Part shown: positions 5,220-13,781 of the stretch, one piece after another
How positions within the stretch are numbered: the first letter of the stretch is position 1
How the letters are laid out: every line of letters begins with the position of its first letter
Assembly (NCBI RefSeq): GCF_002161675.1
Contig: NZ_NFIH01000007.1
Span: 1-64,000 of the forward strand
Source of the DNA: Pseudoflavonifractor sp. An44
GTDB taxonomy: Bacteria; Bacillota; Clostridia; Oscillospirales; Oscillospiraceae
DNA length: 64,000 bases
Reading direction: 5' to 3'
Program-made: the position numbers and the translations under genes
The notes under the pieces: model-generated
What the model was told of the DNA's origin: nothing
The model's database searches: none
Seen by the model: the letters and a program-made list of their open reading frames with translations, nothing else

Positions 5220-5290
5220 TGCACATTGCTCCACAAACTTCGACACCATTCGCCCCCTGGTTTTATCTGAATTTCTCCCCAAAATACACC

Positions 5291-5659
5291 AAGCCCCCAG
5301 CTGTCCCAAATCGCAGCTGGGGGCTTACTTCTGGCTAGAAATTTCCAATGGACGCTACCTACTCTTTCTTTGGATTTTTGACCTTGGATTCCGAAGAGAA
5401 ATGACGAACTCATGGTTTCTGCAAACGCTCACACCTTGGTTTCCGCCTTGTCTGCCACTGGCATCAGGGGATTCTCCTACGTGTCTTCTGCTTACTCAAG
5501 CCTGTTTGGAACTTTCCGAGTTTCACTTCACTTTGCGCAACCCAATCATCGAAGTCTGGATGTGTGTTACCTTCTTCCTTCATATTTTTCATATCGCGAT
5601 ATGTTTACTGAAGTAGTCGGTTCCGGTTAGTACATCGGACTCACCCTTCCTTTCTTCTT
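5291..5659 (-). ncRNA. Candidate untranslated RNA, ~370 nt, between rlmH and mreB
   Basis: The 624-bp gap between rlmH and mreB has a near-consensus leftward promoter (5666-5694). About 330 bp on is a GC-rich hairpin (arms AAGCCCCCAGCTG at 5291-5303 and its complement at 5314-5326), with a modest U-rich tail beyond it on the minus strand. Between them there is no frame with a ribosome binding site. The longest minus-strand ATG frame, about 40 codons starting MKNMKEEGN, has none and uses AT-rich codons unlike the neighbours. I tested by eye for tmRNA, RNase P, SRP and T-box signatures and saw none. A long mreB leader is the alternative reading. Confidence 0.45.
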
Positions 5660-5665
5660 GTCTGT

Positions 5666-5694
5666 ATTGTACTATGACCATCCCGTTTTGTCAA
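5666..5694 (-). promoter_or_regulatory. Strong leftward promoter of the candidate RNA
   Basis: On the minus strand a perfect TTGACA (5689-5694), 17-bp spacer and TACAAT (5666-5671). This is one of the best housekeeping promoters in the window, yet no gene with a ribosome binding site follows for over 500 bp. Confidence 0.8.
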
Positions 5695-10730: not shown

Positions 10731-10984
10731 CGGTACAATGGCTGTGATGGGAAGGAGTACCCGCCCGCTTCTGGTTCAGAGAGATGCCGGTTTGGTGCAA
10801 GGCATGGCAGAGGGCGTGGGGAAGGTGGTCCCGGAGCTGCGGCGTTGAACATAAGGAGTAAATGCCGCCGTGTCCCTACGTCAGTGGGAAAAGAGTGCGG
10901 GCTGTGTATATCCGGTCCGAATTCAGGTGGTACCGCGGACATTTTCCGTTCGCCCTGAGTCTACGACTTGGGGCGAACTTTTTC
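10731..10984 (+). promoter_or_regulatory. T-box leader of valS
   Basis: This leader senses uncharged tRNA-Val. The T-box sequence AGGTGGTACCGCGG lies at 10925-10938, with stem I landmarks AGGAGTA (10753) and AGAGAGATGCCGG (10779). The likely specifier loop reads GAAGGTGGTC (10821-10830), where both GTG and GTC are valine codons. The terminator (arms 10948-10955 and 10971-10978, then TTTTTC) competes with the antiterminator containing the T-box. Uncharged tRNA would allow read-through into valS. Confidence 0.93.
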
Positions 10985-11060
10985 TATGCAAAGCATAGAA
11001 AAAATAGGGATGTGCCATTTCCTCGCCCCTAACGTGGCAACCGGAAATGATGCACAACAA

Positions 11061-11119
11061 ACTGCATGGGCATCCATACATTTCCGTTTTCGCACTTATC
11101 TATGCCCATGCAGTTTTTA
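11061..11119 (+). terminator. Second hairpin/terminator between the T-box and valS
   Basis: A perfect 13-bp stem (ACTGCATGGGCAT at 11061-11073 with 11102-11114) and TTTTTA end 28 bp before the valS start. A GGAAATG (11043-11049) lies between two CATTTCC copies (11016-11022 and 11079-11085), so alternative pairings are possible. It is not part of the standard T-box layout. Confidence 0.65.
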
Positions 11120-11147
11120 TTGCCCCATAAAGACAAGGAGTGTTGTT

Positions 11148-13781
11148 ATGAAGAAAGAACTGCCCAAGGTCTATGAACCCCAGGAGGTAGAGGGCCGCAT
11201 CTACGAGATGTGGGAGAAGAACGGCTGCTTTGCCGGGCACCGTGACCCGGACAAGAAGCCCTTCACCATCGTCATGCCGCCCCCCAACGTCACCGGACAG
11301 CTGCACATGGGCCACGCCATGGACTGCACCCTCCAGGACATCCTGATTCGCTTCAAGCGGATGCAGGGCTACGCCGCCCTGTGGGTGCCCGGCACCGACC
11401 ACGCCGGCATCGCCACCCAGATCAAGGTGGAGGAGGAGCTGCGCAAGAAAGAGGGCCTGTCCCGCCACGACCTGGGTCGGGAGAAGTTCCTGGAGCGGGT
11501 GTGGGACTGGAAGCACCAGTACGGCAACCGCATTGTGGCCCAGCAGAAGAAGATGGGCGCCTCCTGTGACTGGGATCGCTCCCGGTTCACCATGGACGAG
11601 GGCCTGTCCAAGGCCGTGCGCCACGTGTTTGTCTCCCTGTACAAGAAGGGCCTCATTTATAAGGGAAGCCGCATCGTCAACTGGTGCCCCCACTGCGTCA
11701 CCGCTCTGTCCGACGCTGAGGTGGAGTACCAGGACAAGCCCGGCCACCTGTGGCACCTGCGCTACCCCATCGTGGGCGAGGAGGGCCGCTATGTCATCGT
11801 GGCCACCACCCGGCCTGAGACCATGCTGGGCGACACCGGCGTGGCCGTCAACCCCAACGATGAGCGCTACAAGGACCTCATCGGCAAGAAGTGTCTGCTG
11901 CCCCTGGTCAACCGGGAAATTCCCATTGTGGCCGACGAGTATGTGGACATGGAGTTCGGCACCGGCTGCGTGAAGATGACCCCCGCCCACGACCCCAACG
12001 ACTTCGAGGTAGGTCTGCGGTGCAACCTGGAGTCCATCCGAGTGCTGGACGACCACGGCGTGGTCAATGAAAACGGCGGCAAGTACCAGGGCATGGAGCG
12101 CTACGAGGCCCGCAAGGCCATTGTGGCCGACCTGGACGAGCTGGGCCTGCTGGAGAAGATCGAGGACCACCAGCACAACGTGGGCACCTGCTACCGCTGC
12201 GGCACCGACGTGGAGCCCATCATCTCCGCCCAGTGGTTTGTGAAGATGGGACCCCTGGCCGAGGAGGCCCTGCGGGTGGTGCGGGACGGCGAGACCAAGT
12301 TCGTCCCCGAGCGCTTCACCAAGACCTACACCAACTGGATGGAGAACGTCCACGACTGGTGCATCTCCCGTCAGCTGTGGTGGGGCCACCAGATTCCCGC
12401 CTGGACCTGCTCCGAGTGCGGCCACATCACCGTGTCCGAGACTGACCCCACCGAGTGCGAGCACTGCCACTCCAAGCACATCACCCAGGAGGAGGACGTG
12501 CTGGACACCTGGTTCTCCTCCGCCCTGTGGCCCTTCTCCACTCTGGGCTGGCCGGATGAGAACAGCGAGGACTTCAAGTACTTCTACCCCACCGACGTGC
12601 TGGTCACCGGCTACGACATCATCTTCTTCTGGGTGGCCCGGATGATCTTCTCCGGCTGCGCACACACCGGCAAGACGCCCTTCCACACCGTGTTCATCCA
12701 CGGCCTGGTGCGGGACGACAAGGGCCGCAAGATGTCCAAGAGCCTGGGCAACGGTATCGACCCCCTGGAGATGGCGGAGAAGTACGGCGCCGACGCCCTG
12801 CGCTTCAACCTCATCACCGGCAACAGCCCCGGCAATGACATGCGCTTCTACGTGGAGAAGTGCGAGGCCATGCGCAACTTTGCCAACAAGATTTGGAACG
12901 CCAGCCGCTTCGTGATGATGAACCTGACCATCACCGAGAATAAGCTGCCCGACACCCTGGAGCCCGAGGACAAGTGGATTCTCTGCCGCCTGGGCGAGGT
13001 CATCAATGAAGTGACCGAGAACATGGAGGCCTATGAGCTGGGTGTGGCCTCCGCCAAGGTCTACGACTTCATCTGGAGCGACTACTGCGACTGGTATATC
13101 GAGCTGACCAAGGCCCGCCTCCAGGGCGAGGACGAGTGGGCCAAGGTGCAGGCCCAGCAGGTGCTGGTGTACGTCCTCACCGAGACCCTCAAGCTCCTCC
13201 ACCCCTTCATGCCCTTCATCACCGAGGAGATCTGGCAGGCTCTGCCCCACCAGGGCGACTTCCTCATGCTCCAGTCCTGGCCCAAGGCCGATCCCGCCTG
13301 GGCAGATGTGAAGGCCAAGGAGTCTATGGAGGCCGTCATGGACGTCATCCGCGCCATCCGCGCCCGCCGCTCCGAGATGAACGTGCCCCCCTCCAAGAAG
13401 GCCGCTCTCACCATCGTCACCAACGAGGCGGATATCTTCGCCTCCGGCGAGGCGCACCTGAAGCGTCTGGCCTGGTGCTCCTCTGTCACCGTCCAGAAAG
13501 AGGACCTCACCGACACCGCCGGCATGGTGTGCGACATCACCCACATGGCCAAGCTGTATATGCCTCTGGCCGAGCTGGTGGATCTGGCCAAGGAGAAGGC
13601 CCGCCTGGAGAAGGACCTGGGCAAAAAGAAGGGCGAGCTCAAGGGCCTGGAAGGCAAGCTGTCCAACCCTGGCTTCCTCAACAAGGCTCCCGAGCACGTG
13701 GTGGCCGCCGAGAAGGACCGGGCGGAAAAGCTGAAGGTGCTCATTGCCAAGATTGAAGAGCAGCTCAGCGCAATGAACTAA
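11148..13781 (+). CDS. valS: Valyl-tRNA synthetase
   Basis: ValRS charges tRNA-Val in the cytoplasm and edits misactivated threonine. It is a class I synthetase of 877 residues: the HIGH signature appears as [15 protein letters not shown], and KMSKS as [15 protein letters not shown] Cys-rich zinc-type insert has CSECGH and CEHCHSKH. A Lys/Glu-rich C-terminal coiled coil binds tRNA. ATG 11148 follows AAGGAG at 7 bp. The frame is open further upstream through the T-box terminator, but that is leader. Expression is controlled by the T-box and probably by the extra hairpin at 11061. Confidence 0.96.

Follow-up and report, generated by a model that had tools for sequence, protein, structure and literature searches.

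The mreB-proximal region of Pseudoflavonifractor sp. An44 contains, with very little doubt on our part, a real and conserved RNA gene that carries two mini-ORFs. The gene occupies a promoter-to-hairpin interval of about 375 nt that is devoid of any conventional gene, and is built from a promoter, a Shine-Dalgarno (SD) sequence leading a two-codon frame (SD1-ORF1), a second SD sequence leading a seven-codon frame (SD2-ORF2) and a terminal hairpin. These elements, their linkage, their conservation and their independence from the neighboring genes can be read directly from the DNA of this organism and its relatives. An initial sequence-only reading of the locus had proposed an independent RNA without a protein gene; contrary to that reading, the RNA is apparently translated. 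With its two conserved, very short SD-led frames it is better called mRNA-like or dual-function than non-coding, and it most likely belongs to an undescribed class of translated RNAs that engage ribosomes.

Locus, promoter and predicted transcript

In the window (the whole 64,000-nt stretch of DNA analyzed), the RNA gene is preceded by rlmH (PF02590) and followed by mreB (PF06723). The TTGACA-N17-TACAAT promoter of the sequence-only reading is present on the minus strand at 5694-5666, with the -35 hexamer TTGACA at 5694-5689, a 17-nt spacer and the -10 hexamer TACAAT at 5671-5666, and matches the consensus at 11 of 12 positions. The predicted transcript (5285-5660, minus strand, ~375 nt) has its start estimated from the -10 box and its end from the hairpin; transcription, translation and termination of the RNA are all inferred from such sequence features. 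The transcript segment is the unit conserved within the genus, has homologues family-wide and folds, as a single sequence, more stably than its shuffles (z = -2.9). Since the promoter and 5′ end lie outside every search model described below, their conservation constitutes a set of independent tests. Of 127 homologues, 116 have a promoter with at least 10 of 12 consensus matches, in 115 cases with a 17-nt spacer, versus 2.1% of shuffled upstream sequences.

The sequence-only reading also assigned mreB a promoter of its own. A promoter-like site (TTGCAA-17-TATACT) does lie at 5219-5191, but it matches the consensus at only 9 of 12 positions and is the sole basis for that claim. Elsewhere in the window, on the plus strand, a T-box leader (RF00230, 124 bits; 10735-10960) lies directly upstream of a valyl-tRNA synthetase-like ORF (10968-13781).

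Distribution in the genus, family and class

A DNA search of relatives returned matches in 33 of 60 genomes, every one of them in the window's genus. Close relatives, among them Candidatus Enterenecus species and Pseudoflavonifractor capillosus An386a by their record names, contributed 33 mreB loci (L031-L063). The RNA lies upstream of mreB in 31 of these, and one of the two loci without it ends at a contig edge. It is absent from the more distant mreB loci of Flavonifractor, Intestinimonas and other Pseudoflavonifractor. Members of the genus differ in the promoter spacer and the middle region, but scarcely at all in the promoter hexamers, the 3′ hairpin, several unpaired blocks and the first 25-30 nt.

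R1, a covariance model that was trained on genus sequences only and spans the 3′ 146 nt, matched 55 of 301 family genomes, representing 25 of 106 genera and nearly always once per genome. A wider model (R2, E ≤ 0.01), whose weakest matches may include false positives, matched 181 of 401 family genomes in 63 of 106 genera. The third model (R3) describes a sister group, in which ORF2 starts with Met-Leu-Asp, and matched 73 of 394 order genomes and 21 of 391 class genomes. No single model covers both the family and the sister group; they are connected by their shared layout and by intermediates such as L135, which matches R1 with E = 2e-6 and has the family's 5′ motif, ORF1 and loop. Judged by these matches, the RNA gene is present in Oscillospirales and in other Clostridia.

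Copy number and surroundings show some local peculiarities. One genome (G251; L197 and L198) contains at least seven copies of the RNA, five of which are arranged in tandem within ~3 kb and have diverged terminators. In L199 (G136) two more copies of the terminator hairpin follow the first downstream (2396-2440, 2614-2658 and 2832-2934), in tandem units of ~218 bp. A divergent member of the genus (L200, G011) has two tandem copies 447 bp apart, with an ORF2 of 13 codons (MHYWNTSTNPSEK) and an unrecognizable 5′ SD/ORF1 motif; L053 is similar. The RNA is also found on four IMG/VR “viral” contigs (L277, L278, L279 and L280). In L278 (9937-10395) and L279 (6691-6983) it is located between a phage tail gene cluster (Baseplate_J PF04865; Mu Gp48-like) and mreB, an arrangement indicating that a phage or tail cassette adjoins the RNA in some relatives. 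Shortly downstream of one sister-group copy is a Gut-1 RNA (RF01706; L286, 1816-1890).

The 5′ end: SD1 and a two-codon frame

SD1, AGAAAGGAAGGGTGAGTCC (5637-5655, minus strand), is an extended complement of the 3′ tail of 16S rRNA. As the tail pattern is absent from the organism's own draft assembly, duplex energies were calculated with the tail of its relatives. The SD1 duplex has an energy of -21.4 kcal/mol, against -12.0 (sd 2.9) for shuffles, of which 2 of 500 were equally low, and is stronger than those of the mreB site (-15.8) and the rlmH site (-16.1). Over 101 homologues the median is -19.9 kcal/mol, compared to -9.6 for shuffles. SD1 leads ORF1, ATG TAC TAA (two codons and a stop; 5627-5635, minus strand), so that positions 5655-5627 have the layout of a two-codon minigene, i.e., SD, AUG, one sense codon and stop. 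The same layout is seen in 74 of the 101 homologues, with TAA as the third codon in 36, TAG in 25, TGA in 13 and TGG in none; since the homologues are related by descent, these counts, like those for the promoter, do not represent independent events, and the stronger argument for ORF1 is the use of three different stops together with differing second codons. Codon 3 is not a stop in the remaining 27, and the ATG is missing in L119 and L120.

The corresponding position of the sister group holds mostly 2-3 codon ORFs whose residues change (MYR, MFK, MRK, MKS, MW, MF). In L285 three tandem SD-ATG-TTC-CGG-stop units lie ~120 nt upstream of the R3 match and are followed by ORF2 and the terminator, the structured middle region being almost gone. 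Residues that are free to vary, a length that is kept and the tandem units of L285 suggest that translating itself matters, rather than the product of ORF1.

The 3′ end: SD2, ORF2 and the terminal hairpin

SD2, AGAAAGAGTAGGT (5357-5369, minus strand), is an AGAAAG..AGGT-like tract present in nearly all homologues; its duplex energy is -15.6 kcal/mol, with 4 of 500 shuffles equally low. It leads ORF2 (5325-5348, minus strand), which has seven codons, TTG GAA ATT TCT AGC CAG AAG TAA, encoding MEISSQK. The sequence-only reading had described ~330 bp lacking any ribosome-bound frame, a description contradicted both by SD1 with AUG-UAC-UAA (5655-5627) and by SD2 with its UUG-initiated ORF (5369-5325). 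An SD, a start, 6-13 codons and a stop placed 0 or 1 nt before the C-run were found in 128 of 130 homologues versus 4.1% of shuffles, although the presence of ORF2 is partly selected for because it falls inside the search models. Starts (TTG 77, ATG 36, GTG 15), stops (TAG 71, TAA 40, TGA 17) and length all vary among the homologues while the frame is maintained. The sister group shows the same fixed placement of the stop at the hairpin in 55 of 59 cases. The sister-group peptides are MLDIKSEQK-like, and over 56 ORFs their Leu codon (TTA 51, CTG 4, CTA 1) and Lys codon (AAG 47, AAA 9) show synonymous changes only. Between genera the ORF2 peptides diverge widely (MEISSQK, MIEPQVEK, MDNQTQK, MITEQVA); they are consistently hydrophilic, often rich in E/N/P/Q, with a Gln near the end, and no signal sequence was found in them. 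A search confined to the main texts of open-access papers did not find these peptides, and an earlier description elsewhere is possible.

The stable downstream hairpin of the sequence-only reading was found as a GC-rich, terminator-like structure (5290-5327, minus strand) whose stem overlaps the ORF2 stop codon, the latter sitting at the foot of the stem. That reading had also proposed looking for covariation in related genomes. Over 36 sequences the hairpin stem covaries strongly, with 99.8% of cells paired and 80 cells changed on both sides; shuffles gave 24.7 such cells (0/500) and slid controls 1-4. A CGNNGGA-like apical loop is retained in the family although the stem sequence changes, which suggests more than a mere terminator, as this would not need such a loop. 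The tail, TTGGTGTATTTT (5281-5292, minus strand), has a weak U-tract, as do several relatives; even so, termination at the hairpin is likely.

The variable middle region

Small conserved elements are embedded in the middle of the RNA. An GTTCCAAAC block followed by a small hairpin, GCTT-GAGT-AAGC, is located at 5490-5512 (minus strand); the block is near-invariant in the genus, and the small hairpin is present with altered sequence in other genera. A further small hairpin block, GTTTGCAGAAAC (5415-5426, minus strand), is likewise near-invariant in the genus. We rejected a global conserved secondary structure, as RNAalifold supported nothing beyond the terminal hairpin and a few small stems. 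A conventional small protein or decayed gene was also rejected, as indels that are not multiples of three break all middle-region frames in the genus alignment; L053, an outlier, looks coding-like over one stretch. We also discarded a kissing interaction of the 5′ UCC motif with the GGA loop, since the bases, judged by eye, seem not to covary.

Neighboring genes

The sequence-only reading regarded the RNA as independent of mreB, and its neighborhoods outside the genus support this. There (INDEPENDENCE) the RNA is not adjacent to mreB, and at 11 of the 23 loci examined spoVAC/spoVAE-type genes precede it. The genes downstream are unrelated: murC, metA (twice) and a radical SAM gene are convergent, and miaB and spoIVB are co-directional. 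Downstream genes so diverse, and so often on the opposite strand, indicate that the RNA is its own gene and not a leader.

Comparison with known RNA classes

The impression that the RNA belongs to no known class agrees with a search of Rfam 15, in which the window segment had no match at the gathering threshold and, even at E ≤ 10, none better than expected by chance. The RNA had no match at 41 further homologous loci either. The same genome has a 6S match on contig C26 and a tmRNA match on C15, both above cut-off, as well as an RNase P-like match (G000:C12:115269-115605) that scores 44.7 bits with the class B model, below its 97-bit cut-off, and is possibly a class A RNA. As the genome's matches to these three RNAs are located elsewhere, we rejected them as identities for the present RNA. 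A CsrB/RsmZ-type CsrA sponge was rejected because CsrA (PF02599) was not found in the organism's own genome, the control genomes being positive. Neither of two genome-wide ncRNA surveys mentions these genera in its main text, the part that our search covered.

Several characterized systems resemble parts of the RNA. STAB-SD type 5′ stabilizers (cry3A) have extended 16S complementarity near the 5′ end. The RNA described here is similar in this respect; unlike in STAB-SD, its 16S-complementary element precedes a conserved start and stop codon. The bar gene of phage lambda is a two-codon minigene. Minigenes of this type in the axe-txe leader (mg2) and the LEE1 leader reportedly affect RNA stability and downstream translation (PMC8708949). 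The predicted 5′ unit of the RNA shares with them a strong SD, an AUG, one codon and a stop, but whereas mg2 and the LEE1 minigene lie in leaders of protein genes, the one here opens an independent RNA across many genera and is sometimes in tandem. Dual-function sRNAs (RNAIII, SgrS, SR1; VcdRP, PMC8672173) are independent regulatory RNAs carrying an ORF, and by its sequence the RNA is likewise an independent unit with its own promoter, terminator and conserved ORF, as the ORF2 counts (128/130) and sister-group codons indicate; their ORFs, however, encode proteins of tens of residues, in contrast to the ~2 and 7 codons seen here. The uORF attenuators (ilvB and fthC motifs) have a very short SD-led ORF with its stop in or beside the terminator stem, as does ORF2, but calling a uORF requires a consistent downstream gene (PMC11109978). 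The definition therefore fails here, mreB being the consistent neighbor inside the genus only. Minigenes, dual-function sRNAs and uORF attenuators each share one feature with the RNA and none combines them.

Possible functions

The function that we put forward, as a serious possibility that we hold with somewhat less than even confidence, is that the RNA works in trans through ribosome engagement, and that the junction of ORF2 stop and terminator lets translation set the 3′ end and hence the amount of RNA. A consensus sigma-A promoter would give the ~375-nt transcript, whose 5′ end would bind 30S subunits through the extended SD and run the two-codon ORF1. The 5′ minigene may thus load and recycle ribosomes and protect the 5′ end against decay, with the variable middle and its small conserved hairpins separating it from SD2-ORF2. 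On completing ORF2, a ribosome would unpair the foot of the hairpin; efficient translation would therefore weaken the 3′ end through readthrough or decay, and poor translation would allow the hairpin to close and the RNA to accumulate. In this way the capacity for initiation would be reported, or buffered, by how much RNA is present and how heavily ribosomes occupy it. The separately conserved promoter, the strength of SD1 with its stop at codon 3, an ORF2 stop fixed to a covarying hairpin, the diverse downstream genes and the reported effects of two-codon minigenes (PMC8708949) speak for this model; the homologues that have lost the ORF1 start or stop speak against it. More speculatively, and with only a modest chance of being right in full, these “mini-ORF RNAs” may be widespread in Clostridia, with neither a protein nor an antisense seed but ultra-short translation units as their working parts: ribosomes would be loaded on 2-3 codon minigenes (in some species in tandem), the end of a 6-13 codon ORF would be coupled to the RNA's own terminator, and the RNA, acting in trans, would both sense translation initiation and serve as a sink for it.

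The evidence of the two ORFs also bears on another explanation, in which the RNA is the messenger of an active peptide of 6-13 residues, with ORF1 and the middle region as a regulatory leader. We consider this somewhat unlikely. An ORF2 frame that is held while its start, stop and length vary, the consistently hydrophilic products with Gln near the end and the purely synonymous changes in the sister-group Leu and Lys codons are what a peptide would predict; the conserved residues of that group favor a peptide function and count against ribosome engagement in trans. The wide divergence of the peptides between genera and their lack of a signal sequence speak against it, and a messenger leaves the locking of stop to hairpin and the tandem ORF1 units unexplained. 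If instead the single-stranded blocks (the GTTCCAAAC block and the CGNNGGA-like loop) paired with target mRNAs, the ribosome binding at the ends could serve mainly for stabilization; in Bacillus, SD sequences near 5′ ends stabilize RNA. The near-invariance of the unpaired blocks in the genus, a loop conserved where its stem is not and variable neighbors would all suit such a base-pairing sRNA, which has no need, however, for the frame of ORF2, and the GTTCCAAAC block is not kept in every genus. We regard base pairing in trans as unlikely.

A cis-acting mreB leader (attenuator or riboswitch), with readthrough of the hairpin governed by translation of ORF2, is improbable. Such a leader would account for the invariable position of the RNA upstream of mreB in the window's genus, and a stop codon within a terminator stem is typical of attenuators. 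It is difficult to reconcile with the unrelated and often convergent genes (murC, metA, radical SAM) that follow the RNA in other genera, with the mreB genes of those genera that lack it, with an RNA-to-mreB distance that ranges from ~140 to 700 nt within the genus and with the 9/12 promoter-like site of mreB itself. That a known RNA (6S, RNase P, tmRNA or a CsrA-binding RNA) was missed by the library, or that there is no functional RNA at all, we consider most improbable: the length does fall within the range of tmRNA and RNase P and there are several GGA motifs, but the other matches in the genome, the apparent lack of CsrA and the Rfam results oppose the former, and conservation far above chance opposes the latter.

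Significance

An RNA gene that is widespread in gut Clostridia is thus missing from the Rfam library. Absent from Rfam and with frames too short for gene callers, it belongs fully to neither category, “non-coding RNA” or “protein gene”. Should the mini-ORFs function as units of translation, they would be, to our knowledge, among the shortest conserved translated frames, and the question whether bacteria employ dedicated RNAs to sense or buffer ribosome availability would become directly testable. The ~190 unique copies examined, including those with tandem minigenes and those with lost start codons, provide a ready comparative experiment.
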